Virus record (IMG/VR): IMGVR_UViG_3300025438_000010
Location: 1-64,000 of that record
DNA: 64,000 bases
Reading direction: 5' to 3' (one strand)
Source of the DNA: a virus
The position numbers and the translations under genes were made by a program. The notes under the pieces are model-generated. The model was not told the DNA's origin. It saw nothing but the letters and a program-made list of their open reading frames with translations, and searched no databases. Below are positions 31,469 through 58,300 of the stretch, piece after piece. Numbering within the stretch: position 1 is the stretch's first letter; each line of letters starts with the position of its first letter.

Positions 31469-31469
31469 G

Positions 31470-35329: not shown

Positions 35330-35762
35330 GCCCACACGGTTCTAACACGGGCAACCTTGGGCGCTTTTTCTGTTGGGGTGGTGCCCCCTGTGGGAGTGCC
35401 CCCTTACCCTAGCCAGGGGGGCGCTGGGGGTGACTTGAGTAGGCGCTACCCCAGGGGCTGAGACTCTACTAGGACAGTCTCCACCCCCAACGACTAAGCC
35501 CCCCTCTTTCGAGGGGGGCTAGCCTGTGATGACCTACCAGGTGGCGACTGTGCGAGCCCCTGTGAACTCCCAGGGGAGTGAGCCGTAAGCCAAGCGAGCC
35601 ATGTCGTGGAATGCAAGCTCTTCGTTCTTGTAGGTTGCGCTAGCAATTCCAGTTCCCATTGCCTTGCAGTCTTTGGCGAACTCGCGAACCTGCGCGACTG
35701 TGTCGATTGCGAAGCTGTACTCTGTGCCGTTCATGTCCCTAGCTGTGATTCCAAACATTTTG
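35330..35762. repeat. Direct repeat copy 2, 433 bp
   Basis: Second copy of the repeat at 34725. The flanks on the right-hand side of both copies also share CATCCCGGGCGTGTCGC (35246 and 35858 areas) and resembling leader sequence, so the original duplication was longer and its outer parts have diverged while the 433-bp core stayed identical. Confidence 0.95.
35534..35758 (-). CDS. Duplicated phage protein, copy 2, 74 aa
   Basis: Same protein as 34929-35153. Its own leader has AAAGGAAAC before the ATG. A frame extension of 20 residues upstream exists but the Shine-Dalgarno supports the shorter start. Confidence 0.8.
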   Translation of the reverse strand: MFGITARDMNGTEYSFAIDTVAQVREFAKDCKAMGTGIASATYKNEELAFHDMARLAYGSLPWEFTGARTVATW

Positions 35763-38316: not shown

Positions 38317-40146
38317 GTGGGCATATACACTCGAGGCGAGTCTGATGACTCCACCCCGACTCCCCCAAAAGCTAAAAGCCAGGGCATCAGGACCTCCGGC
38401 AAAAACAGTTCCCGGTCTACTCAGTATGTAGTCAACAAAAAAGTTCCGCAGCCTTCGGCATTCTCTAATCTTTTCATTGCCAACTCTCCAGCGTCGTCTG
38501 TTCCCTATAACTACCCTCGCTCGATGACAGCGGCTGCTGCTCAAATGAAGGTCAACGACCGCGCTGAGTTTGAGCAGTTTAAGTCTCGCCGCTCCGCTTC
38601 TTCCAGCGCTTGGCAGTCTGAGGCCTGGGAATATTACGACGCAATCGGGGAAATTAAATACGCTTTTAATCTTGTTTCATCAGTAATCTCCAGAATCCGC
38701 ATTTATTCAGCAACTGTTGACGACCCCAGCCAGGCTCCCATCTCAGTACACGAGTCTGGAACAATTGAAGCCAACCTTGCTTCTGCTGCAGAGCGTGCTC
38801 TAGCCCGTCTTAGCTCTGCGTACGGCGGACAGGCTGGTCTTTTGAGAGACGCCGCCTTGAACATCTCTGTCACAGGTGAGTGCTATCTCGTCCAGTTCCC
38901 AGCTCGCATTGGCTCCGGGGAACCAGAGTCCTGGGACGTAAGATCCGTTGATGAAGTCCTTCCTGACTCTAAAGGTAACTTTGCTGTAGCCGGACGCCGT
39001 GAGCAGCTTAGTGGCCAGGGGGCTTCTCAGGGAATGGGACTGTACCCACTTCCTAAGTCAGCTTTTGTTGGGCGCATTTGGCGATCACACCCTCGCTTTT
39101 CCGATGAAGCAGACAGCTCCTTGCGCGGTCTTCTTGACCTGTGTGCTGAGCTTCTTTTGCTCAACCGCACATTCCGTGCAACAGCTCGTTCACGTCTTAA
39201 CGCCGGTGCTCTCTACCTGCCAGACGGACTTTCCGTTGCCGCCCAGGCTGACCCTAACTACCCCTTTGATGATGAAGATGGCATGGGCGCTTCGTTTACA
39301 CCTGAAGAGGCAGAAGACGAGTTCGAAGAGCAACTGATTGACGCAATGACGACCCCCATCAGGGATGAAGAGTCTGCAAGCGCCGTTGTTCCTTTGATTA
39401 TCCGTGGACCTGCCGAGCTTGGTGACGCAATCAAGCAGTTCAAGTTTGAGCGTTCCTTCGACCCAGCACTGGCTGAGCGTTCGGACCGCGTCCTTGAGCG
39501 CATCATGCAGGGCCTTGACGTTCCTAAGGACGTCGTTTCGGGAATGGCGAACGTTAAGTACTCCAACGCCCTACAAATCGACGAGAGCCTCTACAAGGCG
39601 CACATTGAGCCTTTGATGCTTCTTATTGTCGACGCGCTTACGGCTGTCTACCTTCGCCCCTACCTTATTGCTCAGGGGTACCCAGAAGTTGACGTAAACC
39701 GTCTTGTTGTTTGGTATGACCCCAGCGCTGTCTCTACTCGTAATGACCGAGCAACAGACGCAGACGCAGGGTTTGACCGGGGAGCAATCAGTTACGACAC
39801 CTGGCGACGGGCTCATGGCTTCTCCGACCAAGACGCACCCAAGCCTACCGAGGTAGCCCTCCGGATGCTCCAAGAGCGCGGAGTTATCACGCCTGAGCTT
39901 ACCGAGGCACTTCTTGGTGTGGTTGCGCCTGATGTCATGGAAGCGGTCCGTGGTGCCTCTCAGGGCGCTTCCGCAGGCCCCATCCCCCCTGAGCTAGAGC
40001 AAATACTGCAACAGGCAGCTGGCGGAGCCCCCGCAGACCCGGCTGCTGAAGAGTCAGAAGCTCCGGCAGCTCCCCAGGAGGAATCACCCGGAGCGCAGGC
40101 CGGGCAAGAGCCTCCAGGCCTGGGTATTCCCGAGGTAGCCCCGTAA
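38317..40146 (+). CDS. Portal protein
   Basis: 609 residues, GTG start after AAGAGGAAC. The core matches actinophage portals: WEYYDAIGEIKYAFNLVSSVISRI (about 106-130), a long central helix region and MQGLDVPKDVVSGMANVKYSNALQIDE (about 397). The last 45 residues are Pro/Ala/Glu rich. Portals form the dodecameric ring through which DNA enters and leaves the head. No large terminase gene precedes it in this window. Confidence 0.85.
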   Translation: MGIYTRGESDDSTPTPPKAKSQGIRTSGKNSSRSTQYVVNKKVPQPSAFSNLFIANSPASSVPYNYPRSMTAAAAQMKVNDRAEFEQFKSRRSASSSAWQSEAWEYYDAIGEIKYAFNLVSSVISRIRIYSATVDDPSQAPISVHESGTIEANLASAAERALARLSSAYGGQAGLLRDAALNISVTGECYLVQFPARIGSGEPESWDVRSVDEVLPDSKGNFAVAGRREQLSGQGASQGMGLYPLPKSAFVGRIWRSHPRFSDEADSSLRGLLDLCAELLLLNRTFRATARSRLNAGALYLPDGLSVAAQADPNYPFDDEDGMGASFTPEEAEDEFEEQLIDAMTTPIRDEESASAVVPLIIRGPAELGDAIKQFKFERSFDPALAERSDRVLERIMQGLDVPKDVVSGMANVKYSNALQIDESLYKAHIEPLMLLIVDALTAVYLRPYLIAQGYPEVDVNRLVVWYDPSAVSTRNDRATDADAGFDRGAISYDTWRRAHGFSDQDAPKPTEVALRMLQERGVITPELTEALLGVVAPDVMEAVRGASQGASAGPIPPELEQILQQAAGGAPADPAAEESEAPAAPQEESPGAQAGQEPPGLGIPEVAP

Positions 40147-41198
40147 TGGCAGACCCAAAAGAGGTATACGCAGCTCTTCACAAGACTGAAGAGCTTCTTG
40201 CCGAGATGCGCAAAGAGGCCCGGGAGCTTTCTACTAAGAAAACGGGAGCAGGAACCCCGGCTCCTAAGAAAGATCGGGTCAAGGGGTCTAAGAAAAACCC
40301 CAAAGGTTCTGCATCCGGGGATAAAAAAATTACTTTTGACGCCAAAACTGAGACAGCCATTAAAAACAAGGTTGAAGAGCACAACAAGACCGCTAAAAAG
40401 GGCCGTAAGGCCACCACAAGGATGCTCAAGGCAGTCTACCGCCGTGGAGCTGGTGCCTACAGTACCTCACACCGCCCCGGAAAGACTCGCAATCAGTGGG
40501 CAATGGCTCGAGTAAACGCTTTCCTCAAGCTTTTGCGCTCTGGAAAGCCCTCCAAGGCTGCTTACACTCAGGATAACGACCTTCTTCCCGCTGCACACCC
40601 TAAGTCTTCAAAGAAAAGCGCTTCTACCCTTACTGCATCGGGGCTGATACCCGAAGAGCAAGCCTTAGCAGATGCTTTGGCGGAGGTTGTAGCAGTCCAC
40701 GGCAAGTTTGACCAAGACGGTGACGGCGTTTGGGCGGGCTACACTCCCGCAAACGAAAACGAAGACGCCGCAATTGGCGTTAAGTGTTCAAACTGCGTTT
40801 TTTACCAAGGCGGAGACCAGTGCGGAATCATCAGTCTCAGTGTTGAACCAGAGGGCAAGTGCCGCTTTGCTGTTTTGCCCGAGGGGGCCGTCCAGGGAGA
40901 CAAAGTCCCCCTTCGAGACCCCGAGTCTCTCGATCTTTTGCTTGCCTCTGCGGACGCTTCCGGCGAGTTGGCCATCTCACTAAAGGACTATTCAGAGTAT
41001 AATTCTGTAGAAGAAACAGTCATCGCTTTAACAGAGGCTTCGGGTATGGGATACGACGCAGAATTTGCCATTAAGGCGGCTTGGATGCGTGCAGTTAGAA
41101 ACGGAGAAGACCCGTTTGAGCGGGCAAAGCAGCTTGCGCTAAACCCCGCTGGTAGCCTTGATGTACACCTTCTTCCTGCAGACTGGGAGGACAGGTAG
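40146..41198 (+). CDS. Basic head-associated protein with zinc-like motif
   Basis: 350 residues. A Lys-rich N-terminus (to about 85) leads into YRRGAGAYSTSHRPGKTRNQ and DNDLLPAAHPKSS (about 100-155), a segment often fused to actinophage head proteins, then CSNCVFYQGGDQC (about 215-227) and a helical end. TASG at about 164 resembles the possible cleavage motif in neighbouring head proteins. Overlaps portal and the giant gene by single codons. Confidence 0.65.
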   Translation: MADPKEVYAALHKTEELLAEMRKEARELSTKKTGAGTPAPKKDRVKGSKKNPKGSASGDKKITFDAKTETAIKNKVEEHNKTAKKGRKATTRMLKAVYRRGAGAYSTSHRPGKTRNQWAMARVNAFLKLLRSGKPSKAAYTQDNDLLPAAHPKSSKKSASTLTASGLIPEEQALADALAEVVAVHGKFDQDGDGVWAGYTPANENEDAAIGVKCSNCVFYQGGDQCGIISLSVEPEGKCRFAVLPEGAVQGDKVPLRDPESLDLLLASADASGELAISLKDYSEYNSVEETVIALTEASGMGYDAEFAIKAAWMRAVRNGEDPFERAKQLALNPAGSLDVHLLPADWEDR

Positions 41199-44100
41199 TG
41201 TCTGATAATATTCCCGTCTCCCCCCTTAACTATCACGGTTCCTTCGAGGACGAGAATAATCAAATTATTGACGCGGCTCTGGAGTTTGCACATGATGCCA
41301 ACCAGGGCTATACGGGCACCCGGGTTGCCACAGACGGAGTAGTTCTCGACGTTGCCAGGCGGACTCTCCGGGAACTAGACAACCATCCTTTCTCTGTTCG
41401 TAAACATCTTACTTTGACAGATGTTTCTCACTTTATTGTTTTGCTTCAGAAAGACAAGGCTGTTACCGCCTCGGTCCAGCACACCGATCTTCTCCCCGTT
41501 GCCCACCCTCGGTCTTCCGCAGAGCACGAGCTGAGTAACCAAGATCTGTTCGCCGCCAAAGCCCGCTGGATTGCCGACGACCCGTCTATTAAAGACGAGG
41601 AAACTCGTGCCATGGTTGCCTCGATGCTTACGGCTCCTGAGGGCTCTGCTGAGCGCGAATATTACGCAACCAGGCTTGAGAACAGCCCCCAGGGGGCTAT
41701 TCCTGTAAGAGCCTTGATTGCGGCGTTTACCGGCGGCCTAGGCGCTAACAAGGGTTACTGGATGCGCCAGCGTCGTGACCGTAAGGGTCGCTTTGCTTTC
41801 GAGGGCGGTGGCCTTAGTGTATTGGTCAAGGGCAGCACAGGTGCTGTTCGCAGGCTGACTGGTCGTACTGTTGGTCCGGGTGTTGGTGAAAAAAATGACT
41901 ATTTTGATATGGAAGTTTCTCCCGGAAGCCTTGTCCGTGTTCCAGCATCTGCAACCGAGTCTTCTAAAGCGTACTTGCCTAGCCCAAACGCCCCGGACGG
42001 ATACAGCCCTCAAAAGGCTCGGGTCCAAGCTGGCGACCCCGTCATCGACGAAAAAGACTTAATTCGTCCTGATGCTCCCAGTGGCTTTAATAAAGTTGCC
42101 GACGGAGCTGATGTCGACTCTCCCGAGGAAAAAGAGTACTATGGCGAAGACGCCGACTTTGGTACAGTGTACGAAGACGAAAATTATACTGTCCGGCAGT
42201 TTGACTCAGGGTCTTCCCCCGTTGCCCGAGACAATTTTAACTTGGCTCAGGAAGCCGAGCAGTCTTGTGGGCTCACCGCAGCCGGTGAGGGCGATAACTG
42301 TCCGATTAAAACTAGTGGCGCTGGTGAAAACGGAAGCTTTGACCCAGAGAAGCCGGTTTTGTTTGTCAGCCGTACAGACGACGCGAGCAATCCTGACATC
42401 TTTGCGGCCTCCCAGAGCTGGGCGGACACCCTAGACTACATTCGTCAGGATGAGCCTCGGTACGAAGCCGAAGATAGACCAGCCCCTTACATCAAACTTG
42501 GTGACCCGAGTAGGCGGGATAACCTTGACCCCACTAGGCGCGAAGAGGGCCCACGCGGCCCCGATAATAGAAGAGTCGATCCACACGGCTTTATTATTCC
42601 GGATAAACCCGGCCTTATTGATGGCGGGGGAAGAGTAAGACCTGACGGAACAAGAGAGTTGCTCGAGGGGCGTCGGCCGGACAGCTATCCGATGCGCATC
42701 CCCCTCCCGGGCCCCTGGAACCCCCGCATTCCCGGCACTGGGCGAAGGCCCCGCCCCGGAGGAGGCCGCGCTCCTGGCGGAGGCGGACGCTCTCCCGGAA
42801 CAGGACGCCGCTGGGGCTCCAACGGCCCTAACGAGGGCCACGCTCCCTACCCAATCCCTGGGCGTCGTGTCTACCCCGGCGAAATTGCGGACATGCGCGT
42901 TGGATCAGAGATGGAGCAATATCTCGGAGGATTCCTTTCGACTCTCTTTGGAACAGCAAAAAAGCGACAGCTACGAAAAACTGGTGCTGACGAGTGGGTT
43001 GACCTGGAGACCGGAGAGACTTACACTAACGATCAAGTCTCAGAGATGGCCGCAACTAGTGGTAAAGATAGTTCTCCTTTTACGGGACTTGCGACAGGAC
43101 CCGAGGTACGCCCCGGAACATTTACTAAAATGATGTCAGGCTCGCTTTTTAGCGAGCTTCCCACCGGCAGTGAGCTTAATGATCACCTAAGACTTTTTAA
43201 CGTTATGACCCAGTTCCGCAAGGTTGGGTATAACCAGTGGCGTCGGTGGGACGGCAAAATCTTTACAGATGCTGAGGTGCAAAAAAAGAGCGGCACTATG
43301 CAGATTGACCGAGTTGGAGAATTTGGTCCTGGTAGACCCCCCGGTGGGGAAGTATCAGGAGAATCCTCTAAACCAAGACTCCCCAGAGGTCCACTGACCC
43401 CCGAAGAGCTGGCCGAGCTTCGCCCCGGATCCCTTATTTCTATACCTGGAGAAGACGATCAACCTCCTCGCTTCTTTGTAAAAGTAGGCGAAAACGACTG
43501 GCGCGAGATTGACCCAGAGAATTTTACGTCAGACCCTGCAGTTTCTTTCACTGATGAAGACATTCTCAACATGGGTAAGGACATTACTCTAGAGAAAGAG
43601 CCAGAGGCCTACGAACAGGGGCAACTAGGCATGCGTCCATCAGATCTTTCTCCTGAGGCCCTGGAAAACCTCCCCGAGGGCACAGTTGTAGGGACTTCAG
43701 ATGAAGAAATTGATAACCTCAACATTCCCCGGCAGCCCTATGCGACTGAAGAGGCGTACCAAGCAGCCCTAGAAGAAGCCAAAGAGTTTTACCGCCGCAA
43801 TAGGTGGCGTAAGCGTGGTCCCAACGAGTGGGTAAATGACTTTGGTGAGTTTGCTACAGACGCAGATATTGCAGACGGAAAGAAAACTCCTGGACTTATT
43901 ATCTCTCTCGGCGATGAGGTTAGCACCCCCGAAGGCTACTACGATTTAAATCGAGAAGAGCTTTACACGCCTACAGGCGGCGCAGAAGGGCAAACCTCAC
44001 CTGACTTCACCGATGACCCCGCAGAGCTGGCTCAACGTTTCTCAGAGGAAGAGCTGCAGGCAGCCCTTAAAGAAGCCCTCGAGAACCCCAACGGTTTTGG

Positions 44101-47100
44101 CTATCTAGAGTTTGCAGAAGGCGACGAGCCGGTGCCTGCAGAAGCACTGTACTATGCCTTGGTTCGTAAGCTCGGTGTCGATGTAGCAGATAAATTTGTC
44201 AGCGTCGTTTATGGTGAAGGGCGAGCCTTTGACGCAGAGACTGAGCTTGCCCGAGAATTCCCCGACATTCTTAGTGATGACCCAGGCAAGCGCCAGGCTG
44301 CTCTTATCGAGGCTTGGAACACCCAATGGGGGCGCTCCAAGTTTGCACTAGATAGAGACGGAAACTTCACTGTTACCGGTAAAGACAATGACAGCATTGC
44401 CACTCAGTATCTGCTCGACAAAATCAGGGCAGAAGAGTGGGGGCAAGAGTTTCTTAACGACTTCCAAGAGGAGTATGGCGAGGTTCTTAATGACCGCACT
44501 AAGGCGGCAATTAAAGATCTTTTCAAGGCTTATCCAGGACTAGAGAGCTCCGACCCCAAAGAGCGTGAAGCCGCAGTACTCAGGGCTCTAGACGATTTAA
44601 TTAGTGACGACGAATATGTTGCTGATGAAGACGGAAACATCGTTGAGGTGAGCCCCAAGACTGCGCTTACTAAACTTTTGTGGGACATGGCTCAAGAGTT
44701 TATTGGTGGAACATCCGCCCCTACTGGTAGAAAAGAAGAAGGAAATCTTCCTTCCGTGATCGAGGGGGCTTCCGAAGAGGAGAAAGCTGAGTTCGATAAA
44801 ACAGGTGACCCCACTCCTTTCCTCCCTAAAGACAACCCCGAGTCCTTTGAAAACGTGTGGAACAACTACTACAACCCACTTCCCGAGCCTTATGACCCCA
44901 AAGACGGTCCTGACCAGATCAATCCGGTAAATCTTGCTCGTAAATTCACCCCTGATCAGCTGAAAGAGCAGCTTCGCGAGGCCATTCTTGATGGGAGTGG
45001 TTACGGTGTCGTTGCTTTCGAGGGCCCCTCCGGCGAGCCCATTGAGTTCCGAGTCCCAGCCGAAGCGCTGAGGGATGCACTGCAGCTTCAGGGCGAGGAT
45101 GCAAACGCCTTTATTCAAGATATTTTTAACGAAAACCTTTCACCAGCCAAGCAGGTTCAAAAACTTATTGACGAAATTGCTGACCTTAAAGCTAGGCGTG
45201 ATGCGGAGACAAACTCCACGGAGAAGGGCAAACTTACTCGACAGATTAACAAGAAGACCGCTGAGATCGGGATGCGCTATAAGGCTATTGTGGCTCTTAA
45301 AAAGCGCGAGGCCCAGCTAGACCGTCTATCCAAGCAGAGCAGCTTGTCTGACGAAGAGCGCCAGCAGGTTCTGGACAAACTTGAGCAGGTTCGAGCACGT
45401 CGGGAGCAAGAAGAAGGCATCTTCAATGGAGACCTAGAGCAGGGCGAAAGCATGACCCCGTTCGAGGAAAATGTAGATGCTGAGCTTGAGAAGTTTGACT
45501 TTGAGCAGGCCTCTACTCGTACGCCAGTCGAGCCCCCTGCAGCTGAATCTCCTGAAACGGTAGAAAAGGATAAGCCTAAGCCCGTTGTCTCCTACAAGAG
45601 GGTAGGCAACAAAGTATTCATCAGACAGCGGACTGGTCGCGTTATCACCAACAACCCTGAGTTTAAAGAGTTTATTAAGGAAAACGGTTTTGTCTACGAC
45701 TCTAAAGTAGACAAGGTGTTTGAAATTTCTGAAATGGATGACACTGAATTTAACGAATTTATGCGTACCGTTCGTGACCGGTTCGGTATTAGTCTTGAGC
45801 CCGAGAAGGGTCAAGAAGCCATTGACTTTGATGCCTCGCCTTCACCTACTCCTCGCCCCGTGCCCAGCCCAGCTGAGTTTGGAAAGTCCCCCAATAGTGC
45901 GTCTATTATCGAGTCTCTTCAGCGCCGAATTGCGGATATTCAAGAATTTGTTAGAAAAAAAGTTGTCCCACTTCTGCGCTCCGATAAAAGTGACGAGAGC
46001 CGGCAGGGACAGCAGCTTAATCGCAGAGCAGAGAACATTACTCGTAAGCTTAAGAATCGGATTAGTCGTCATCAAGATGAGGCACCAGTCGGCAAGGATG
46101 CTCGTGACCCCCGTGTCCTCAACATCCGCCCTACGGACTACCAAGTAGGGGATGTCTTTGTAGACGATTTGTTCACTGTTGATCGAATTGAAGTATCAGA
46201 GCCCATCACAGACCGGCAAAGTCCCTACTTTGGTGAGCGCGAAATTGTCTACTTCGGGCACTACCCGGGTGGCGTGGAGCAAATGAAAAAGCGCCCGGAG
46301 AACTTCAGAACCGATGGAGTTTACCGAGGCTTAGGGTCACCTGCTGGGGGGGACCTGCCCGCCCTGAATTCTCCCAAGGGTGAGGAGTATCTCCCCGAGG
46401 CAGCTCGTAATCAGCCTAGAGGAAATCTGGAGCAGATTGAGCGAGAGCCTCTTGACGGCCGCGAGAGACGGAATCTTTATGGTCCTAAGCAAAGAGACTT
46501 CCCCGAAGAACACGACAAATTCCTTAGAGACTATGAAAAGTACGAAGCTGACCTAGCGGAAAGAAGGGCTAGCTGGTCTCCCCCGGCTCCTTCTGGTGAA
46601 ACACGACCCACCACTACATCAGAAGGCCAAGGAGCTCCAACTCCTGGTCCTCGCCCCAAGATTGTAACCGGGTCTGACGAAGCTCAAAACTTGAAGCCCG
46701 GGGATATTACATACAGGGAAAACCCAGACGGCTCTCTTGAGTTTTTTGTTGTCCAAACTGTTGAAAACCGTAAGGTAAAGACCGGGACTAAGACTGTTAC
46801 GCAGGAGGCCCCCGAAGCCCCTCAGGTCGTAGACACTGAGACGGCCCAATCGGCTCTTGACGAGGCCGTCAGGCGCTACCCCGAGCTGGGGGAGGATGAT
46901 CCGGCTAGACGGAAACGTGCGTACGCCAAACTTATCGGAGAGTTTTACGCAGAGGCCCAGCAGGCTGGAGAAGCCCGTAAAGAAGGTAAAGACTATGTTC
47001 CACTGGAGGGCCCTTTAGGAGAGCGCTTTGGTTGGCTGCTTAGTCAGCGAGAACGAGTTGTCGCAGGTGAGCCCCTTAGTGTAGAAGAAGTGGTTCCAGG

Positions 47101-50100
47101 CGAGCCTCGAGAAATTGAAGAAGATGTTTTCGAAGAAAAAACATTTGTAACTGGTTACCACCCAGGGCACGAAATTCAAGAAAAGTCTTGGAGCCCCCAG
47201 ACTACTATTAATTACGTCAGAGGTGAGACTGGTCTTCCCCCGGCTGGGGATAAGCCAGCTGTTCCCGGAAAAACAGATATCTACGCTTCTACTTCCAACA
47301 AAGCGGAGCGTGCGAGGCTCCTAGCAGAGAGAGAATCCACCCTTTCTGAGTCATCAAAGCTCTACGCTCTTGACTCTGCTGCTAAAGTCAACGCTGTCCC
47401 GAGTAAAGTTAAAAACCCCAATAGTTTTGTGATGATTGGAAAGTTTGTTCCGGCTTTCTTTGGGAAAAAGATTTTGGACCTTGTCCGTGGTAAGACTGGC
47501 AAGGAAATTAAAGAAGAGCTGAAGAGCAAGAGGGTTGTGTTCCTTGACTTTGAAAGTGTTGGTAAGGGATTTGATAGACGAAACCCAGATGCCCCAATTC
47601 AGGTCGCGGCGGTTGTCTACGAAAACGGTCAAGAAACTGGTCGTAAGGTTCTCTTTATCAACCCCGGTGAGCGCCTTGGCGGGTATTACTACGAGGCCTA
47701 CCCTAAGAAAGACCAAGATGCTGCTCCTGGTGATGTCACCCCCGGAAAACTGCCAGACGGCTCACGTGTAGGACAAATTGTTGGCGATGAGCTTATTACC
47801 TACACAAGGCAGGGAGCGCGTTGGGTTAATGATGCCAACTCCGAGGATGTTTTAAACACAACCCAGCTAAAAACCCGCTCTTCTGAAACTCTAAAGCTAA
47901 ACGAAGAAGGACAGCCCACTCTAAGAGGTAATCGTCTTCGTGATTCTGACGGTAATCCCATCACTGATGAGTTTTTGTCCTCGCAAAAGGGACTCGAGGA
48001 GTCCTTCCGCGAGCTGATTGACTTTATCGGGGAAGATGCATACCTCTCCGCTTTTAACGCCGATTTCGACATTAATTTATTGGATAGTTTTGCGGAGCGT
48101 TTAGGGCTTGACTTCCGCAGTGACGGGTTTATCGACCCTCTAGCCCTGGCCCGGGCCCTCAATCCAGATGACTCTGTCCCCAACAACCTTCCCTCGGTCG
48201 CAACCAGATACGGGATTATTAGGGACCCAGATGACTGGCACAACGCTGAGATTGACGTTGAGGTTCTTCCAGATCTTCTGGACAAAATGCTTGATGAAGT
48301 AACCCCCGACAACTCTGTTCTTGACGCAGACAAAAGAGCAGCCGAGTATGAGAACGGGATTCGCAGATATTTTGAACAGCTAGACCAGTGGGAGGCCCAA
48401 GAGGGGATTACACCTAGGTCGCCCGCGCCGGTAGAAGCCCAAGAGGAGCCTACACCTACACCTACACCTACACCTGCTCCTGCTCCTGCGCCTCAGGGCG
48501 AAGACACCTCTTCAGATCAAGAAATTGATGCTATGGGGATCGGGGCCAACCCTCGCTCTATATTTGGTGACACAATAAATGAAGAGTGGATTGCAGACGA
48601 AGAAAACACTATCGTTGTGGCCAATAGTGCTAGCAATGTCAGAGACCTGCGGATTGGTGACTTTTTCGGAGATCAAAACGGAGAGTACAACGAGCTTCTT
48701 GTAGTAGAGACAGATCCCATCACCGGCAGGGAGACATTTACTTACCGAAATGTCAACACAGGAGAGATTTTTAGGGCTTTTGGGGCTCCAGGGTCTCAGG
48801 CGCGGGTGGGTACAGATCAAATGCCTTTGCGCAGGCGATCCGAACTAGACGGGCTGAGTAACGCTGAAATTCTAGGTCTTTTAAATAATCGCGCACGTAG
48901 AGACTCTCTAAATATGGCCGTCCCTGAGGTTCAATTTGAAGACGGGGCAAGTAGGGCTGTTTCTAAAGCTATTGACGACTTTATTAACGAAGGTCGTGGA
49001 GACGCCTCCGTCTCGGACGGCTTGCCTGCTCGCGAGACAAGTGCCATGCACACCGATAAAAACGGATTTGCTCTTGCCGTAGACGACCTTGTCTATAACC
49101 CTAAGACAGGTACTACACATAAAGTAACCCAAACTTACCCAACGTACTCTAAAAATGAATACGTTAACTACGTTCGAATAAGTTTTATTAATTCCAAAGG
49201 CCAGGCCGACTCTAAGCCTATGGCGTCCGACAAACTTGAACTGATCAATCCCCCTGCTCAGGAAGAGGCCCTTTCGCCTCTGTCAGATGTTTTTGGCGAG
49301 CAGGTCGTTATCGGAGGTAAGAAAGAAAAGCCTAGAGATCCAATTTTAATTGCTCGCACAATAGAGCGACTTATGGGCTACCTGAACCCCGGGCCAGGAT
49401 ATATTCGTCCGATTGGCAATGCCATTAAGGCGGCTATTAAAGCCTATAGAAATAATGATTTTGCATCTGCTGAACGCTTTGCGGGGGCGGCAGTAGACTA
49501 CGCTGACTCCATAGAAGCCCCAAAAATCACTGTTGAAGACATCAAAAACCAGGTTGCTGACAGAGCAAGAGGTCTTGCTGGCCTGATTCAGCTGCCTGAG
49601 ACAGGTCCTGCACCCAGGGAGGCCTTTGCTGAAGCCGTTGGTCTGTACAACACCGGGAAGTATGCCCAGGCTCGCAGGAAGCTTGACACGGTGGAAGATC
49701 TACTCTGGAACGAGGCAGAAGAAGCTCGTCAATCTGCAGGTCGCTCACCGCAAACTGCTGTTAAAAAGTTTATTGATGGAGTTGGAGAACTAGAATCTGC
49801 GATTGATGCTCCCCTAACCAGAGAATATTTTGCTCGGCTACTCCGAGATGCTCAACGCAAAGACTATGATTTTGAAAATAAAGAGGGGATTATTCAAGAG
49901 GCACTTCAAGCCATTAGAGACGGATTTATTATCCCCGGATATCAAGTTCTTGAAAGACTTGCTCGCACCAGAGAACGCCAGCTTGATCAAAAAAATCCAA
50001 AGCGGAGAAAGCTTGGAGAAGAAAGCTATACTCAGCGGCTCACAGCTGAGATTAACTCTGACGTTGCTGAGAAGCCGGGGTCCTCTGCAGATGAATTAGC

Positions 50101-53100
50101 GGAGACAGGGACACCCGAAGAGGCTGCTCAGGAGCAATTAGACCAAGTTGTCAACACGGAAGGTCGTCGTGGTCTTTTTTACACAGACGCTGCGAGTATT
50201 CAAGAAAAAGATATTGTCTTTACAGAAAGCGGTGTTGGGACTGTCATAAAGAGGCGGGACCTTGAAGACGGGTCCATTGAATTGACTGTTACGTCTTCGC
50301 GTGCTGTCCTTGATGCAGATGGTAACGAAGTAGATCTTCTTACCTCCTACAATAAACTGTCCTCCCAGCCCGATGATGAAATACTTCTTCTTCAACGACC
50401 CGCCAAGGACAATGCCCCTCTCCCCCAGAAAGCTCGCAGTATTGGGTCCTCTGAGATTTCTGACTCTGATTATAACGAATTTGAAGGATTCACTGGGCCA
50501 GAAATTGTTGATGAAGAGGATAACGAAATTGAGCCTCCCCCCGTCCTTAACATGGCAGTCCCGGGAACTTCTCCAGCAGAGGACGTAAATGCTACCCCAG
50601 AGCAGGCAGCCATTATGGATGCTATCGCAGAGGGAGTTAAACGCGTTAAGGTTCTAGCATTTGCTGGAAGCGGTAAGACCACCAGTCTTAAGATGGCTGC
50701 TAAGTCAATTCTTAAAAAGAACCCTAAAGCCAAGATTCTTATGGTTATGTTTAATGTCTCTTTGAAGGAAGAGACCTCTGCAAAAATGCCAAAAGGCGTC
50801 GAGGTTCGTACCTCTGGATCACTTGCTTTCCAGGCCTTAGACCCCCAGCTTAAAAACAAACTGAGTAACCAGGCAAATACAGCCAAGTTCCCCGACATGG
50901 CCGTTTCCCTCCGGCAGGAAACTAAAAAGCTCGGCATCCAGGGTCCTCGTAAGCTTACGGTTGATGGCTCAGAAGAAGAATTCAGTGCCACTAGAGTAGC
51001 TCGGGAAGTTAAGAGAGCTGCTATTAAATTTTCATACAGCTCAGATGATAGAGTTACTGCTGAGCACTTTGGTGATAAATTTGATGAGGTTCCAGCCGAG
51101 CTGATTAATTTAGCGCAGAATTACTTTGACATGGCTGTATCGCCAAATGGTGATATTAAGCTAGAGAATCACCACATTGTAAAGCTTTGGTCAATGTCCA
51201 ACCCCGATCTGACAAAGTTTGGCTCTGGTGTCTGGAACACCGGAGCTCAGTATCTCTTTTTTGATGAGGCGCAAGACATCAACCCAGCCGTGGAAAAAGT
51301 TATCACCAACCAGAAAAACTTTGAGTCTATGGTCTGGGTCGGGGATAGCCGACAGGCTATTTATCAATTTATGGGTGCTGTAGATGCAATCAAGAGGTTC
51401 TCTGCCGACCGTGTGCTGGCACTCACACAGTCGTTCCGCTTCGGGGAAAAAATTGCTGGGATTGCGAATCGTGTGCTCAGTCTTATCGGTGAGCCAAGAC
51501 GCATTAAAGGCTCCGGCCCGAGCGGTGAGATTATCGATGGCATGTCTGATCCGACCATTGTTATCAGTCGAACTAACCCTGGTGGCTTGGCCAAGTTGGC
51601 TCAGTTTATTGAAGAAGGAAAAGCTGTCGCCATAGACGAAGACGCACTCATGGAGTACACATCTCTGCTCGACGGTATTGCTTTCCTCAGAGCACGCACT
51701 AACAATCCGGGACTAGAGCGCCCCGCCACACTGCACCCGCAACTTGTTGCATATGACGACTATAGCCAACTCCTTGAGGAGAAAAAAGAGGGAATGCTTG
51801 GCGGAGGTGCTTCTGCAATGCTCAACATTTTGCAGAAGTTCCAAGAGTCTCCTAACGACATCGGAGCTGTGCGTGATCTCATAAATCAGTTCTCCGTGGT
51901 TCGAGACATCCCCACTGCAAAGCGTAGTGAAGACTATAAAGCTCTTGATTACGACGACATTGAGCCCGGAAGTATTGTCCAGGTCAACGCGGAGTCCGAG
52001 CAGGCTCGCAGGGGGAACTCCGCAGCTTACGCCTGGGTGGGAGACGACGGCACAGTTTTTGCCCGAGCTTTTGGATTCAACCGAGGTCAAGGAGCTGCTC
52101 AAGAGCGCAAAGCTATGCATGCTTACTTTAAGTCTCTAGGGTTTAAATGGGACCCAGAGGCAAGCATCCCCGACTCCTTGCGCCAGATAAAAAACTCTAA
52201 CGGTAAGTCTATGCAGACTCCGCCCGAGGGGCAGGGTGGAGCATATGTTATGCCCGCCGGGTCTCCCACAAATCTGGACGAAAACGGTCGCTGGATGCTC
52301 GCCAATCAAATTAAAAAATACGCTAATAACTACTTCCAAACTCCAGAAACTCCCATCTCGTTTACCACTGCCCACAGGGCAAAAGGCCGTGAGTGGGATC
52401 AAGTTCTAATTGCCGGGGACTTCCCAAAGCCAGATATGGACGAAGAAAGCCTTGAATGGAAGCTTCCCGATGAGGAGGAGCTAAACCTTATTTACGTAGC
52501 AGTCACTCGAGCAATTAAAGGCTTAGATCTTGGCTCCCTGAGTTGGGTGCTGGAGGAGACCACGGACGACGACGCCGCGTATCGTCAGCCAAGTGCTGAA
52601 GAGAGCGTCTTGAACATGGCTATTCCTACTAAAAAAGTCAGCAAAGTTGAATTTGTTGAAATGGTAGATGAAGCCGATCAAGCCTTGGCTGCCCAAACCC
52701 AGCGGGTTCTGGATGAGATTAAAACAGCAATTGCGGACGGGGAAACCCCCCCGTGGGTCGCCCCATGGCAGGCAACAACCAGAAATCAAAATACTACTCC
52801 GGGTCGTCTTCCTATAAGTGTTACTACCGGTAACGCCTACTCGGGAAGCAATCTTCTTTATCTGCAGGCAGTAGCTAAGAACAACGGTTGGTCAGATAAC
52901 CGCTGGGCCACCCAGGGCGAAATAGATAAGCGCGGGGGCAAAGTAAAAGCAGGTGAGCTCCCCACTAGGATGACTGCTTGGTTGCCCAACTACACCACAA
53001 TTTTAGATGACGAAGGCAACGAACTTGAGACCATTTATTCGGTAAGCCCTCAAGATCACTTTGTATATAACGTTGAGCAAGTAGACGGTCTAAGCAACCT

Positions 53101-54781
53101 TGGAAATACCCCTAGTGCCGCATCTCTTACCCCTTCAGAAGCAGAAAATGCTATGTTGGCTTCCTACGTAGACGCACCCTCTATTGTTAACCAAGAATCC
53201 AGCCCCGAAGACGTCGAAAGCGGCCGGGCTGCCGCTAACTACCAGCTAACCACGGACACCATCTCTCTGCCTCTCAGGGAAAACTTTCCTTCTAATGAGA
53301 AATATTTTGAAGCACTCGCCCATGAACTTATTCACTCAACAGGCGCGACTCAGCGACTCAATAGGGAAAGTGTTGCCTTCCCCGGAGGGGTGAGTGCCTA
53401 CTCCGCTGAGCAGTATGACGAAATGAGAGTCGAGGAAGAGTTTATTGCTCAGATTGGTACAGCTATTCTGGCCTCCCGGTTAGGGGTTAGCCTAGATATT
53501 CCAAACTTGGCTTCTTACATGAAAGCCTGGCAAGATGTGTACAGTGACGACCCAGACCGCCTTGTGCGAGCAGCCAGAAAAGCTCAGGATGCTGCTGATT
53601 ACATTCTTCGAGGCGGTGGCGGAGGCTCCGCGTCAGCCCCTGAGGCCGCCCCGCTAGATGATTTTCTTGTCTCCTCTACTGGCTGGCAGCTAGCCGTTCC
53701 CACAGAGCGTTTTAACATGGCTATCCCGTCGGAAGACACAACTCCGGAAAAACTAAAGAGTGAAGTTTCCGAAACTAAGACTAAAGCTCAAGAAATTTCT
53801 GAAAAAGTGACCAACATGGTTGTACAGGCCATTGAAGATGGAAAGGAGCTTCCATGGAACAAGCCGTGGACAAGCGACAACATTTTCTCGATGCCCTACA
53901 GCGTGACCTCAAATAAGCCCTACCGAGGATCTAACATTGTTTCCTTGTGGGTAGCGGCGGCAGTAAACGACTGGGAAGATAATCGCTGGATTACTTTCAA
54001 CGAAGCCAAAAAGCGTGGTGGGTCCGTCAAAAAGGGCTCCAAAGGCACTCAAATTGTTAACTGGAGCCCAGTCAAGAAGAACGTAGAACAGCCAGACGGA
54101 AGCATGAAAGAGGAAGTAGCCTTTATGCGGCCCTCAGTCTACACTGTGTTCAACGTGGAGCAGACAGAGGGTGTGCAAGACCTCCCCGAGCCCGAGTTGA
54201 TGGAGCCAGTGCCGATTCTAGAGGCAGAAACTGCTGTCCTCGATCGGTACAAAGATGCGCCTCCTATTAGCAATAAGCTTCAAGATGCCGCCTTCTGGCG
54301 TCCCTCAACAGACGAAATTGTTATGCCGCTTCGGGAACAATTTAGTGATGTAGGAGAGTACATCGCTACCCTATTTCACGAACTTACCCACAGTACCGGG
54401 CACAAGAATCGGCTAGACCGTAGTGACCTTGGCGATAAGTATTCAACACACCTTGATGCTCGAGGAGAGGAGGAGCTTGTTGCCGAAATAGGCTCTGCTA
54501 TTCTTGCCGCCCGCATGGGAATAGAGCTAGACCTCACTCGAACAGCTGGTTACGCACAGTCCTGGTTGCGCCCTTTGAAGAATGATCCCGACATGATAAC
54601 CAAGGCAGCTCAGAAGGCGCAGGCTGCAGTAGACTACATTCTCGGAGACTCCCCCTACCGGGGAGAATCCGGTCGGACTGGTGAGGAGCGTGCAGCGGAC
54701 CTAGAGGCCCCTGAAGCAAATGCCGAGCCCACTGCCCCAAACCTAGGAGAGCAGGGAGTACCTGGAGATAGCAATGATTGA
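41198..54781 (+). CDS. Giant polyvalent protein (exonuclease, helicase, two ArdC-like peptidases), 4527 aa
   Basis: GTG start in a TAGTG overlap. In order: DLLPVAHPRSS segment (about 95); Gly/Pro/Arg-rich region (about 435-560); four repeats with K-x-G-x-(N/D)-x-W (about 590-895); two copies of an 80-residue helical domain (about 935 and 1237); coiled coil (1315-1410); DnaQ-like exonuclease with DFES, AFNADFD and HNAEID (2110-2365); UvrD-like SF1 helicase with GSGKT (3155), DEAQD (3355) and HRAKG (3725); ArdC-like domains each with HELxH (4041, 4394). Such polyvalent proteins are thought to be injected with phage D NA to protect it. Coding is intact for 13.6 kb. Confidence 0.9.
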   Translation: MSDNIPVSPLNYHGSFEDENNQIIDAALEFAHDANQGYTGTRVATDGVVLDVARRTLRELDNHPFSVRKHLTLTDVSHFIVLLQKDKAVTASVQHTDLLPVAHPRSSAEHELSNQDLFAAKARWIADDPSIKDEETRAMVASMLTAPEGSAEREYYATRLENSPQGAIPVRALIAAFTGGLGANKGYWMRQRRDRKGRFAFEGGGLSVLVKGSTGAVRRLTGRTVGPGVGEKNDYFDMEVSPGSLVRVPASATESSKAYLPSPNAPDGYSPQKARVQAGDPVIDEKDLIRPDAPSGFNKVADGADVDSPEEKEYYGEDADFGTVYEDENYTVRQFDSGSSPVARDNFNLAQEAEQSCGLTAAGEGDNCPIKTSGAGENGSFDPEKPVLFVSRTDDASNPDIFAASQSWADTLDYIRQDEPRYEAEDRPAPYIKLGDPSRRDNLDPTRREEGPRGPDNRRVDPHGFIIPDKPGLIDGGGRVRPDGTRELLEGRRPDSYPMRIPLPGPWNPRIPGTGRRPRPGGGRAPGGGGRSPGTGRRWGSNGPNEGHAPYPIPGRRVYPGEIADMRVGSEMEQYLGGFLSTLFGTAKKRQLRKTGADEWVDLETGETYTNDQVSEMAATSGKDSSPFTGLATGPEVRPGTFTKMMSGSLFSELPTGSELNDHLRLFNVMTQFRKVGYNQWRRWDGKIFTDAEVQKKSGTMQIDRVGEFGPGRPPGGEVSGESSKPRLPRGPLTPEELAELRPGSLISIPGEDDQPPRFFVKVGENDWREIDPENFTSDPAVSFTDEDILNMGKDITLEKEPEAYEQGQLGMRPSDLSPEALENLPEGTVVGTSDEEIDNLNIPRQPYATEEAYQAALEEAKEFYRRNRWRKRGPNEWVNDFGEFATDADIADGKKTPGLIISLGDEVSTPEGYYDLNREELYTPTGGAEGQTSPDFTDDPAELAQRFSEEELQAALKEALENPNGFGYLEFAEGDEPVPAEALYYALVRKLGVDVADKFVSVVYGEGRAFDAETELAREFPDILSDDPGKRQAALIEAWNTQWGRSKFALDRDGNFTVTGKDNDSIATQYLLDKIRAEEWGQEFLNDFQEEYGEVLNDRTKAAIKDLFKAYPGLESSDPKEREAAVLRALDDLISDDEYVADEDGNIVEVSPKTALTKLLWDMAQEFIGGTSAPTGRKEEGNLPSVIEGASEEEKAEFDKTGDPTPFLPKDNPESFENVWNNYYNPLPEPYDPKDGPDQINPVNLARKFTPDQLKEQLREAILDGSGYGVVAFEGPSGEPIEFRVPAEALRDALQLQGEDANAFIQDIFNENLSPAKQVQKLIDEIADLKARRDAETNSTEKGKLTRQINKKTAEIGMRYKAIVALKKREAQLDRLSKQSSLSDEERQQVLDKLEQVRARREQEEGIFNGDLEQGESMTPFEENVDAELEKFDFEQASTRTPVEPPAAESPETVEKDKPKPVVSYKRVGNKVFIRQRTGRVITNNPEFKEFIKENGFVYDSKVDKVFEISEMDDTEFNEFMRTVRDRFGISLEPEKGQEAIDFDASPSPTPRPVPSPAEFGKSPNSASIIESLQRRIADIQEFVRKKVVPLLRSDKSDESRQGQQLNRRAENITRKLKNRISRHQDEAPVGKDARDPRVLNIRPTDYQVGDVFVDDLFTVDRIEVSEPITDRQSPYFGEREIVYFGHYPGGVEQMKKRPENFRTDGVYRGLGSPAGGDLPALNSPKGEEYLPEAARNQPRGNLEQIEREPLDGRERRNLYGPKQRDFPEEHDKFLRDYEKYEADLAERRASWSPPAPSGETRPTTTSEGQGAPTPGPRPKIVTGSDEAQNLKPGDITYRENPDGSLEFFVVQTVENRKVKTGTKTVTQEAPEAPQVVDTETAQSALDEAVRRYPELGEDDPARRKRAYAKLIGEFYAEAQQAGEARKEGKDYVPLEGPLGERFGWLLSQRERVVAGEPLSVEEVVPGEPREIEEDVFEEKTFVTGYHPGHEIQEKSWSPQTTINYVRGETGLPPAGDKPAVPGKTDIYASTSNKAERARLLAERESTLSESSKLYALDSAAKVNAVPSKVKNPNSFVMIGKFVPAFFGKKILDLVRGKTGKEIKEELKSKRVVFLDFESVGKGFDRRNPDAPIQVAAVVYENGQETGRKVLFINPGERLGGYYYEAYPKKDQDAAPGDVTPGKLPDGSRVGQIVGDELITYTRQGARWVNDANSEDVLNTTQLKTRSSETLKLNEEGQPTLRGNRLRDSDGNPITDEFLSSQKGLEESFRELIDFIGEDAYLSAFNADFDINLLDSFAERLGLDFRSDGFIDPLALARALNPDDSVPNNLPSVATRYGIIRDPDDWHNAEIDVEVLPDLLDKMLDEVTPDNSVLDADKRAAEYENGIRRYFEQLDQWEAQEGITPRSPAPVEAQEEPTPTPTPTPAPAPAPQGEDTSSDQEIDAMGIGANPRSIFGDTINEEWIADEENTIVVANSASNVRDLRIGDFFGDQNGEYNELLVVETDPITGRETFTYRNVNTGEIFRAFGAPGSQARVGTDQMPLRRRSELDGLSNAEILGLLNNRARRDSLNMAVPEVQFEDGASRAVSKAIDDFINEGRGDASVSDGLPARETSAMHTDKNGFALAVDDLVYNPKTGTTHKVTQTYPTYSKNEYVNYVRISFINSKGQADSKPMASDKLELINPPAQEEALSPLSDVFGEQVVIGGKKEKPRDPILIARTIERLMGYLNPGPGYIRPIGNAIKAAIKAYRNNDFASAERFAGAAVDYADSIEAPKITVEDIKNQVADRARGLAGLIQLPETGPAPREAFAEAVGLYNTGKYAQARRKLDTVEDLLWNEAEEARQSAGRSPQTAVKKFIDGVGELESAIDAPLTREYFARLLRDAQRKDYDFENKEGIIQEALQAIRDGFIIPGYQVLERLARTRERQLDQKNPKRRKLGEESYTQRLTAEINSDVAEKPGSSADELAETGTPEEAAQEQLDQVVNTEGRRGLFYTDAASIQEKDIVFTESGVGTVIKRRDLEDGSIELTVTSSRAVLDADGNEVDLLTSYNKLSSQPDDEILLLQRPAKDNAPLPQKARSIGSSEISDSDYNEFEGFTGPEIVDEEDNEIEPPPVLNMAVPGTSPAEDVNATPEQAAIMDAIAEGVKRVKVLAFAGSGKTTSLKMAAKSILKKNPKAKILMVMFNVSLKEETSAKMPKGVEVRTSGSLAFQALDPQLKNKLSNQANTAKFPDMAVSLRQETKKLGIQGPRKLTVDGSEEEFSATRVAREVKRAAIKFSYSSDDRVTAEHFGDKFDEVPAELINLAQNYFDMAVSPNGDIKLENHHIVKLWSMSNPDLTKFGSGVWNTGAQYLFFDEAQDINPAVEKVITNQKNFESMVWVGDSRQAIYQFMGAVDAIKRFSADRVLALTQSFRFGEKIAGIANRVLSLIGEPRRIKGSGPSGEIIDGMSDPTIVISRTNPGGLAKLAQFIEEGKAVAIDEDALMEYTSLLDGIAFLRARTNNPGLERPATLHPQLVAYDDYSQLLEEKKEGMLGGGASAMLNILQKFQESPNDIGAVRDLINQFSVVRDIPTAKRSEDYKALDYDDIEPGSIVQVNAESEQARRGNSAAYAWVGDDGTVFARAFGFNRGQGAAQERKAMHAYFKSLGFKWDPEASIPDSLRQIKNSNGKSMQTPPEGQGGAYVMPAGSPTNLDENGRWMLANQIKKYANNYFQTPETPISFTTAHRAKGREWDQVLIAGDFPKPDMDEESLEWKLPDEEELNLIYVAVTRAIKGLDLGSLSWVLEETTDDDAAYRQPSAEESVLNMAIPTKKVSKVEFVEMVDEADQALAAQTQRVLDEIKTAIADGETPPWVAPWQATTRNQNTTPGRLPISVTTGNAYSGSNLLYLQAVAKNNGWSDNRWATQGEIDKRGGKVKAGELPTRMTAWLPNYTTILDDEGNELETIYSVSPQDHFVYNVEQVDGLSNLGNTPSAASLTPSEAENAMLASYVDAPSIVNQESSPEDVESGRAAANYQLTTDTISLPLRENFPSNEKYFEALAHELIHSTGATQRLNRESVAFPGGVSAYSAEQYDEMRVEEEFIAQIGTAILASRLGVSLDIPNLASYMKAWQDVYSDDPDRLVRAARKAQDAADYILRGGGGGSASAPEAAPLDDFLVSSTGWQLAVPTERFNMAIPSEDTTPEKLKSEVSETKTKAQEISEKVTNMVVQAIEDGKELPWNKPWTSDNIFSMPYSVTSNKPYRGSNIVSLWVAAAVNDWEDNRWITFNEAKKRGGSVKKGSKGTQIVNWSPVKKNVEQPDGSMKEEVAFMRPSVYTVFNVEQTEGVQDLPEPELMEPVPILEAETAVLDRYKDAPPISNKLQDAAFWRPSTDEIVMPLREQFSDVGEYIATLFHELTHSTGHKNRLDRSDLGDKYSTHLDARGEEELVAEIGSAILAARMGIELDLTRTAGYAQSWLRPLKNDPDMITKAAQKAQAAVDYILGDSPYRGESGRTGEERAADLEAPEANAEPTAPNLGEQGVPGDSND

Positions 54782-55078: not shown

Positions 55079-55355
55079 TTCTCCTGAAGAAAAATTAACA
55101 GATCATATGTACATTATTTATGACGCTCCCACGGGTCAAGTCACCCAGGTTAAGTACGAAACAGCTGCGCACGGGCTGTGGACCAGAATTCAAGGGGAGT
55201 GGCGGGAATTAGCTTTAGAAGATGAGAGCGAAGATTTTATGGAGCGCAGAGAAATTGCTGGAAAAAACTACCTAGAAACTCGTGACTATTTTGACGACCA
55301 AACCGAGCAAAAGATACTTACCTACGAGCCAGAGTACAGGATGTGGTTTGCTTAA
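55071..55355 (+). CDS. Acidic phage protein, 94 aa
   Basis: GTG start. MYIIYDAPTGQVTQVKYETA then WTRIQGEWREL: a beta-rich domain, acidic overall. The stop overlaps the start of the maturation protease fusion (TAATG). Not recognised. Confidence 0.7.
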   Translation: MSDSPEEKLTDHMYIIYDAPTGQVTQVKYETAAHGLWTRIQGEWRELALEDESEDFMERREIAGKNYLETRDYFDDQTEQKILTYEPEYRMWFA

Positions 55356-58300
55356 TGATTGAGCTCTTAGGGCATAGAGGCAATAGAGTCTTATTCGACG
55401 ATGACGGATATGGCGTCATTATCGACGCCCAAGAAAACACTGTAGTCGAGTACGGAGAGACCGACTCTTTGGTTGCCTCGGCAGACTGGAGCTCCTCTAC
55501 GGAGTCAGGGAATTATGCACTTGCAGAAGAGCTGGCTTCTGCCGCGCTTACTGATTTAGATATAAATGTACTCTCAGCCAATGACCGTATGTACACCATC
55601 CCCGCCGGTGTGAAAGAAGAGGCAAAAAGAGGACTTAAGTGGCGCAAAGAGGAAAGCCGTGGAGGCACTAGCGTTGGCCTGAATACCGCCCGGACTTTGG
55701 CAAAAGGTGGCCAAATTGGGATTAAAAAAGTTAGGCACATTGCTAAATATTTTCCACGGCATGAGGTTGATAAAAAAGGTAAAGGCTACAAGCCCAAAGA
55801 AGACGGGTACCCCAGCAATGGTCGTATTGCATGGGCACTTTGGGGAGGCGACTCCGGTAAGAGCTGGGCCTCAAGGATTGTAGAAAGCGAAGACAAAAAA
55901 AATAAAAAAGGTGTCTCCGCCGGGGGGTATGACCAGAGCCCTAGGGTAGATTTCTCTGCTTTTACAGAAAAAACAGATTTTTATGTACGAATTAGATTAG
56001 ATGGAACCGGCATTGACAGGCTTTATCGCGTTCTGACAGACGGCATGTGCCAAGTTTGGGACGACGGCTGCTGGGACGATATGGGCGATATTTCGTTTGA
56101 CTTTATCACCTATGACAAAGCCCTGGACGACCCCTACGACTCCTGTAAAAAAATTCATGTTCCCGTAGACCTTAAAACAGCTGTAGCCGTTTCTGCTTTG
56201 TTTGACAGTGACCCCTACAGAGCTGTGAAAATAGTAGAAATTGAGCCAGAGGAAACAACCCTATTTGAAAAATCCATGGCTGAGCTTGACTGGGATGTTT
56301 TTGACCAGCTAAGTGATGACCAGCTTGAGGTAGACGACTACTGGGACGACGGTCTTACAGCTTCAGGAACAGCTACTTTTGCAGAAGAAGCTGACAGTAC
56401 CCCGGGTGTCTACACCGAAGAGGAGCGCTCCGAGAACGCCTCGACTCAGGTTAGAGACCGTCTTGGTCGCTTTGCCGAGGTGGGCCAGCGAGTTGTTATT
56501 GGTGGGAACTACAACTACCAGGGAAACATTACAGCACTAGACGGAGCCACAAAGCAGATTAGTGTCGAACTAGACAACGGCACGTCTGTTGATGTGCCGG
56601 GGGACTCTGTGCAGGATGTCTCCACTTTTGAACCAATCCCAGTGTCTAGTCCTACTGCCACTCCTTTGGATTACACAGGAATCCTCGGAGAGCCCAGAGT
56701 TCCCATCGACCAGCCCAATGCCATGCTGCCTGGACGCCTCCCCCCTCTCACCGCAACTGACACAAATCTTCTGGTAAACGACTGGGATTCCTGGGTTGCG
56801 GGGCAGCGGCTAGCCCCTGAATACTCAGGCGACCCCCTCCCTCCTTTTGTTCCCAAAGAGGTTCCTGATATTAATACGGCTATGGGGCGCTACTACGAGG
56901 GAGCATTTAATCCTGACGGATCCACCAAACCTGGTTGGAACCCCGCAGTGGCGCAGAACGTATTTAACGAACCGCTTCTACGCGACTGGCTAGATGAGCG
57001 GTACGCCAACAATTCTGGGGAAATCGGGTACCACAACCGTGGTTGGTATACGCCTCCTGTAACGCCAAGGTCCACGCCTGTTGAGCAAAAAAAGACTCGT
57101 AGTGAGGTATACGACCCCACCAACGTGGCCTACTGGAATGATAGATTTAATCCAGTTAACTTCTCTATTACCGCTGCTGCTGACGATAAGCCCCTAACTC
57201 CCGAAACAAGTGATGTTCCGGTCATGTACCTGGCTATTGTAGCTGACGACGACCCCCAGGCGGTTATGGAGCTTGTAGCGTTGGTGCCTGCGTCAAAAAC
57301 AAGCAACGCTCCTTTCGCGTACAAGCGTGAGCCCGGCAAGTGGGTTGCTGATAACCAGATTATCTCTGATCTTAGAAGTGCAACACCACCCCCCGTAATT
57401 GTCCTTGACAACGAAATGCTTTCAGAAGTCACTGAGCAGATTGATAGTATACAAGCCTCTGTGAAGCTTCCCTACTTTATTGCCCACACAGACAACAAGA
57501 TTATTCGGGCATTAGTAGCCGCCGGTGGAGCTGACCGCAACCGTGGCAACGCTGAAAAGCTTCGCAGGTACTGGACTGTTGGCAAAGGCGGATTGAAAAT
57601 TCGCTGGAACACTCCTGGTGATTGGACTCGGTGTAACCGCCAACTTAAGAAGTACATGGGTCCCCGTGCAAAAGGCTACTGCGCTCTCCGCCACAAAGAG
57701 ATGACAGGTGTCTGGCCTGGAGATAAGAAAAATATTGGTAAGAAAACCAAGAAAGCACTGAAAGCATCTGCTGAACTAGAAACACTTAAATCTGAAGACC
57801 AGATTATTTCTGAATTTACTTTAAGAGCTAAGGCCGAGTCCGCCAGGTCACGAGTTGCTGGGAGGCACGGAGTTTCTCCAACTCTGCACGGCCTTGAGTT
57901 TGTAATCCCCCTCGTCATCCCTGAAAACGTAGAAACGGGGGATGGACGTATATTTAAAAAAGGATCGATCACCCTAAGAAGTCTTCCTCTGCCTCTTCTA
58001 TGGCAGATTAAAACAGGGGACGGCCATGACGGGTCCGTTGTGGTTGGTCAAATTATTTATATGGAAAGAACTAATGAAGGCATAGGAAATGCCTATGGAG
58101 TTTTTGATACAGGACCCTTCGCTAAAGAAGCAGAGCGTTTAGTTCGTCATGGGTTTATTCGTGGGGTTTCTGCGGACATGGATAAATTTGAAACTGTAGA
58201 CGAAATTCTCCCTGAAGACGAAGCCGGAGAGAAGTCAGATGATGACAACGCCGGTAAAATAAATATAAAGAGCGCCCGTGTGATGGCTGTAACTATTGTC

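Follow-up and report, generated by a model that had tools for sequence, protein, structure and literature searches.

A single open reading frame with a GTG start (positions 41198 to 54781), found in the 64,000-nucleotide stretch of viral DNA analysed here (the window, cut from a virus record of 75,623 bases that is classed as linear), encodes an intact polyvalent protein of 4527 residues, in which an exonuclease, a helicase and two ArdC units follow an N-terminal region linked to the proteins of neighbouring head genes. The gene lies on the plus strand, as do all the domains, motifs and head genes whose coordinates are given below. We consider, with a probability of about two in three, that this giant is a late polyvalent protein packaged in the head, which would carry its address at the N-terminus, be trimmed and injected, and protect or process the entering DNA; this reading draws on the sequence and on analogy with known systems. 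The integrity of the gene, its domain content, its intact catalytic motifs, its conserved position and its N-terminal links to head proteins were observed directly. By analogy, it can reasonably be inferred to work as an injected anti-defence and DNA-processing machine. For polyvalent proteins, packaging and injection are predicted, and little is known of how such huge chains are recognized for packaging; the present family offers a testable answer in the form of a conserved N-terminal head module ahead of freely exchanged enzyme modules. This kind of protein is already known, and the interest for specialists lies in the head module at the N-terminus, in the motifs it shares and in the linkers that differ by lineage.

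The start codon of the giant shares one base with the stop codon of the upstream gene, and GGGAGGA, which resembles a ribosome-binding site, stands immediately 5' of it. The frame was also unbroken in two further IMG/VR records, contigs of 32,283 bases (L005) and 47,543 bases (L006), each with 100% identity over the query, and this speaks against an assembly artefact in the giant. That separate genes had been fused by misassembly or a frameshift is therefore close to negligible as an explanation: the chain is divided into at least two ORFs in some relatives (L103, L106, L108), but it is entire in these two records of the same virus, and full-length giants of 2,448-4,258 residues are intact in many relatives. 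The single intact gene described in the earlier note was thus confirmed, with its domains and catalytic motifs present, and the frameshift or assembly error by which that note might have been overturned is contradicted by the two unbroken records. No phage nearly identical to the window virus was found in GenBank in a comparison at the DNA level.

Domain assignment by profile and by structure prediction, as suggested in the earlier note, was carried out, and the exonuclease, the UvrD-like helicase and the two ArdC-like units named there were borne out by Pfam, PHROGs and sequence motifs. The DEDDh (DnaQ/PolC-like) exonuclease (47510 to 48316, residues ~2105-2373) matched the RNase_T/DnaQ family at 1.6e-4, just short of the Pfam cut-off, a PHROG exonuclease family at 5.4e-21 and a PADLOC DEDDh profile at 1.7e-12. 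Exo I (DFES, 2117) and Exo II (NADFD, 2287) were intact by pattern search, while the Exo III-type H....D (HNAEID) was read by eye from the translation, the pattern tried having given no match; all three motifs of a DEDDh exonuclease are present with it. The UvrD/SF1A helicase (50579 to 52570, residues ~3128-3791) was detected by Pfam in its N-terminal part (1e-8) and its C-terminal part, and all six motifs, I to VI, were intact between residues 3157 and 3767, as in SF1A UvrD-like enzymes. Its best match by sequence among solved structures was FBH1, a UvrD-family helicase (1.8e-26). ArdC unit 1 (52697 to 53608, residues ~3834-4137) and ArdC unit 2 (53774 to 54694, residues ~4193-4499) together account for two matches to MPTase-PolyVal (PF18818, 1.2e-52) and two to ArdC-N (PF08401, 5.6e-45). 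Both units were complete, with the zincin HExxH and the glutamate helix intact. Unit 2 matched the structure of R388 ArdC (6i89) by sequence at 5.7e-48, and the predicted model of unit 1 matched the same structure by fold at 7.9e-15.

The giant stands among head genes. The portal gene (38317 to 40146, PHROG portal 5.9e-108) is followed by a gene for a 350-residue DUF5824-like protein (40146 to 41198), then by the giant, by a 1600-residue ORF (55343 to 60145) with a head-maturation protease region (conserved domain ~57830-59122), and by the gene for a major capsid protein (MCP) with a long acidic N-terminal extension (60309 to 62354). Identity of 59-75% linked the protease region to counterparts in relatives that are either annotated as capsid maturation protease or placed as such, the annotation being present in the phages DSL-LC01 and Mimi. 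Towards its C-terminal end (~residue 1450), the protease ORF has a segment, RDxxGKFRxVLARLKxxLG, that was conserved across many relatives. The siting of the giant between portal and protease, as first described, is right, with the 350-residue gene separating it from the portal. No large terminase with PF05876 or PF03354 was found in the 75,623-base record; the terminase genes of relatives lie upstream of the portal, and the record is probably incomplete or its terminase divergent.

This arrangement was constant. The N-terminus of the giant lay 3' of the portal gene on the same strand in 161/161 loci holding both, at a median of 1,445 bases, the IMG/VR loci having been collected 80 via the portal and 80 via the giant's N-terminus and the whole set containing some contigs in more than one cut and some viruses in identical copies, so that it does not amount to 161 independent viruses. 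The protease lay 3' of the giant in all 28 loci holding both. It has to be considered that the giant is not packaged and is instead made late to act in the producing cell, in replication, recombination or maturation before packaging, its position reflecting late expression; a helicase and a DnaQ-type exonuclease are indeed ordinary replication and repair activities. We regard this as unlikely, since the position stays fixed while the C-terminal modules are freely exchanged, and the N-terminus is shared with proteins of the head operon. The giant combines several domains of distinct function, among them MPTase-PolyVal and ArdC-N, with a location next to portal and other head genes, as polyvalent proteins do. 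The description as a polyvalent protein in a head operon is thus supported by its domains and by the adjoining portal, protease and MCP genes, and the suggestion that it is probably packaged gains indirect support from its position and from its N-terminal sequence links to head proteins.

Sequence analysis showed that these links lie in the first part of the chain. The N-terminal helical module (41198 to 41539, residues 1-114), which we propose as the packaging address, is paralogous to the upstream 350-residue protein: residues 24-112 of the giant aligned with residues 69-160 of that protein in hhalign over 89 columns (probability 94.3, E 9.9e-8). Within the paralogous region lies the motif DLLPxxHPxSS (41486 to 41518, residues 97-107), common to both proteins, of which the segment DLLPxxHPxS was nearly invariant. 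Further on, an RDRxGRFA segment with a small beta-barrel-like domain (41774 to 41977, residues ~193-260) recurs in the protease ORF. Four loose W-containing repeat units (42875 to 43987, residues about 560-930) and a module present twice and conserved in relatives (43925 to 45232, residues ~910-1030 and ~1180-1345) follow. The N-terminal third had been called repeat-rich, which holds in part, for the W-containing units, concentrated around residues 593-880, and for the doubled module, whose second copy was also delimited at about 1180-1315, but no strict repeat array was present.

A short motif, [LIVM]TA[SA][AG], also connects the head proteins. Against the numbers expected from shuffled sequences, it was observed 39 vs 1.2 times in portal proteins, 41 vs 0.5 in the upstream protein, 25 vs 1.6 in MCPs, 36 vs 1.4 in protease ORFs and 20 vs 2.9 in giants; these ratios overstate the evidence, because the motif was sought after examples had been seen and homologous copies are not independent. 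Six tail-side proteins showed no enrichment, the motif standing at background level there, and this contrast between head and tail side is a better argument than the ratios. In the window, TA[SA][AG] occurs at residue 70 of the portal, 162 of the upstream protein, 250 of the MCP, 338 and 609 of the protease ORF and 359 of the giant, where the strict form is LTAAG (42272 to 42286, residues 359-363). A relaxed form, VTASV (41462 to 41476, residues 89-93), is the copy near DLLP in the window and a candidate trimming site. The strict motif was present in only 18/34 giants. The MCP copies sit in the MCP extension, the contexts are unrelated across the proteins, and structural demands may account for the conservation of the portal copy. 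The simplest reading of the sequences, which is a prediction, is that the motif is a common site of the prohead protease.

The predicted fold of the N-terminal 440 residues was of middling quality (pLDDT 75.9, pTM 0.55) and had no significant match in the PDB; its best match among viral structures was a prohead protease, weak and partial (111 columns, E 0.018). We propose from the sequence that the conserved N-terminal region (~115-440 residues), rather than the enzymes, marks the giant as a prohead protein. The same links, together with the influence of P1 DarA and Hdf on head size (PMC12810830), could also point to a giant that serves mainly to scaffold a large head or to form part of its internal structure, with the enzymes as secondary cargo. 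This we hold to be very unlikely: all catalytic motifs are intact, and the enzyme modules come and go among relatives, which suits effectors better.

Known systems suggest how a packaged giant may act. Phage polyvalent proteins were proposed to be packaged and injected by Iyer et al. 2017 (PMC5512222, cited here from a part of its text). In that part, they join conflict and DNA-processing domains, including MPTase-PolyVal and ArdC, in one chain in phages with portal-type packaging, as the giant does, and a UvrD helicase is reported in a 12,242-residue plasmid-encoded polyvalent chain. The present family differs from the proteins described there in having its own conserved N-terminal head-type module, and no counterpart of the UvrD-ArdC-ArdC end was noticed in that part of the paper. 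The Dar system of phage P1 is also comparable. DarB, an anti-restriction protein of 251 kDa, is packaged in the head and present in the virion; it has an N-terminal packaging signal, 30 residues from its start being enough to direct a reporter to the head, and Ulx, DarB, portal and protease have the consecutive ORF numbers 9-12 (PMC9024508); the N-terminus of DarA is cut by the prohead protease (PMC12810830). The giant, unlike the Dar proteins, has different enzyme domains, and no Dar-type domain was matched in its 4527 residues in the Pfam or PHROGs lists. ArdC of plasmid R388 counters type I restriction (HsdRMS), its own protease activity being dispensable (PMC7213743). Both units of the giant resemble it (6i89, 6sna) in their ArdC-N domain, zincin, HExxH and glutamate helix, but in the giant ArdC is duplicated and fused into a phage chain.

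On these precedents we propose that the N-terminal module brings about packaging, that the chain is then trimmed and injected, and that it protects or processes DNA early on. The module common to the giant and its neighbour would direct the giant into the prohead, where the maturation protease probably trims its N-terminus at a type of site also present in the portal and capsid proteins. As may be expected from the Dar proteins of P1 and the polyvalent proteins described by Iyer et al., it would then enter a new host with the DNA. There, judging by domain homology, the two ArdC units may bind to DNA and weaken restriction of the type I kind; the helicase and exonuclease would act on the incoming DNA, processing or protecting it in the interval before early genes come into play. 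Against packaging we counted that no virion proteome for a member of this family came to light and that so long a chain must unfold to exit via the portal.

The modules of the C-terminal half are separated by a recurring peptide, [LF]NMA[VI]P, with four copies, all between modules: LNMAVP at residue 2571 (48908 to 48925), LNMAVP at residue 3117 ahead of the helicase (50546 to 50563), LNMAIP at residue 3805 at the junction of helicase and ArdC unit 1 (52610 to 52627), and FNMAIP at residue 4172 at the junction of the two ArdC units (53711 to 53728). No others were found in the six frames of the window. In a dedicated test, whose word form was fixed with the motif already known, 0/2000 shuffles gave four copies of a comparable word. 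In an unrestricted 7-mer test the window motif was not above shuffles (82 vs a shuffle maximum of 106), and it did beat them once low-complexity words were excluded. The peptide is kept while synonymous codons differ among its copies, so a recent DNA duplication is not favoured, and the copies may be of unequal age. The flanks of the motif were disorder-prone (P ~0.02), and copies 3 and 4 lie in parts of the predicted model with low confidence.

These features would suit a polyprotein that the head protease, or its own zincins, cut at the four sites into exonuclease-containing, helicase and ArdC proteins, and P1 DdrB is reported to be processed before packaging (PMC5512222). The same paper states that N4 vRNAP and ArdC, which have the same peptidase family, are transferred whole. 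The motif was absent from the portal, the MCP, the protease ORF and the relatives aligned at the same boundaries. A comparable linker, IMDPP, occurs six times in one giant (L104), three times in L195 and L186, once in L194 and not at all in L196, and in proteins 64-84% identical to that of L104 most copies are missing or elsewhere, a gain and loss unlike that of an essential cleavage site. We judge such a polyprotein rather unlikely. Cutting by the head protease at [LF]NMA[VI]P is not favoured, given both the absence from head proteins and the fast turnover of IMDPP, and we do not call the copies cleavage sites because the comparable motif is so quickly gained and lost.

Linkers of this sort were also found in another lineage, where both giant ORFs of L106 carry a GFxQxPG-type motif about 24 times over 5,100 residues, one copy standing just ahead of the first ArdC unit, as in the window. 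The sequences suggest that the linker peptides are real and recurrent, with fast turnover; they may serve for docking or cleavage or be a by-product of module shuffling, with cleavage of low probability. It is doubtful that such peptides, which differ by lineage (LNMAVP in the window, GFAQEPG and IMDPP in others), are cleavage or docking sites in head-packaged giants, perhaps with a partner protein. A shared form, L-x-M-[AGKSN]-hydrophobic, was only slightly enriched in other giants, in a few lineages, and was rejected. In most other giants, a search for repeated 7-mers gave low-complexity P/E/A stretches or repeats no more prominent than in shuffled sequences.

The giants of the family share their N-termini and several middle modules, and their C-terminal parts are exchanged. 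A helicase followed by ArdC in one chain was found in eight relatives, some nearly identical to each other, with the helicase region 31-34% identical to that of the window. The ArdC duplication was rarer: among 40 records, with the window's 100%-identical records set apart, two MPTase-PolyVal matches occurred in one other lineage (G037), in which the second ORF of L106 joins an ADP-ribosyltransferase domain to two ArdC units. In G026, a broken frame divides a single domain, which accounts for its two matches. L097 and L107 each have another HExxH close to their C-terminus; it belongs to no Pfam family and was not counted as a second ArdC. The order and length had been put forward as worth study; helicase with ArdC recurs in the eight relatives and giants of ~2,400-4,300 residues are the rule, so the window giant is not a singleton. 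The giant was split into two ORFs in L103, L106, L108 and L065, which may reflect sequencing error or gene fission. Sub-threshold PI3/PI4 kinase matches (1.6e-5 and 7.2e-5) lie near the C-termini of the L104 giant and of L114 gp82. One 160,704-base contig (G012; loci L032 and L034) holds two portal-plus-giant head modules, which may reflect a genuine duplication, chimeric assembly or the joining of two viruses.

The metagenome-assembled phage DSL-LC01, predicted to infect Actinomycetia (PMC10611076), gave the sole match to the N-terminal 1,200 residues among 50,697 GenBank phage records, and the host of the window virus is probably actinobacterial, as judged solely from this kinship. In DSL-LC01, Mimi, Pumpernickel and Zooman alike, the portal gene is followed at this position by a giant gene. 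The DSL-LC01 giant (3289 residues) has a related N-terminus and gp77 of Arthrobacter phage Mimi (2709 residues) a related helicase; neither contains an ArdC domain by Pfam. Virion content can be checked directly in the cultivated relatives with giants at this position (Arthrobacter Mimi; Microbacterium Zooman and Pumpernickel). One degenerate pattern found no relatives in bacterial genomes (GTDB), a weak negative.

Two other features of the window were observed. An AAA_5 ATPase and, after it, a protein with a weak, sub-threshold match to VWA_CoxE (30416-33218) form a MoxR/CoxE-like pair, possibly the same as a gene annotated as cobalamin biosynthesis upstream of the head genes in DSL-LC01. A perfect 300-nt direct repeat (34722-35021 and 35327-35626, 605 bases apart) lies in surroundings with few long ORFs; each copy takes in most of the same small minus-strand ORF, and the repeat may be a duplication or an effect of assembly.
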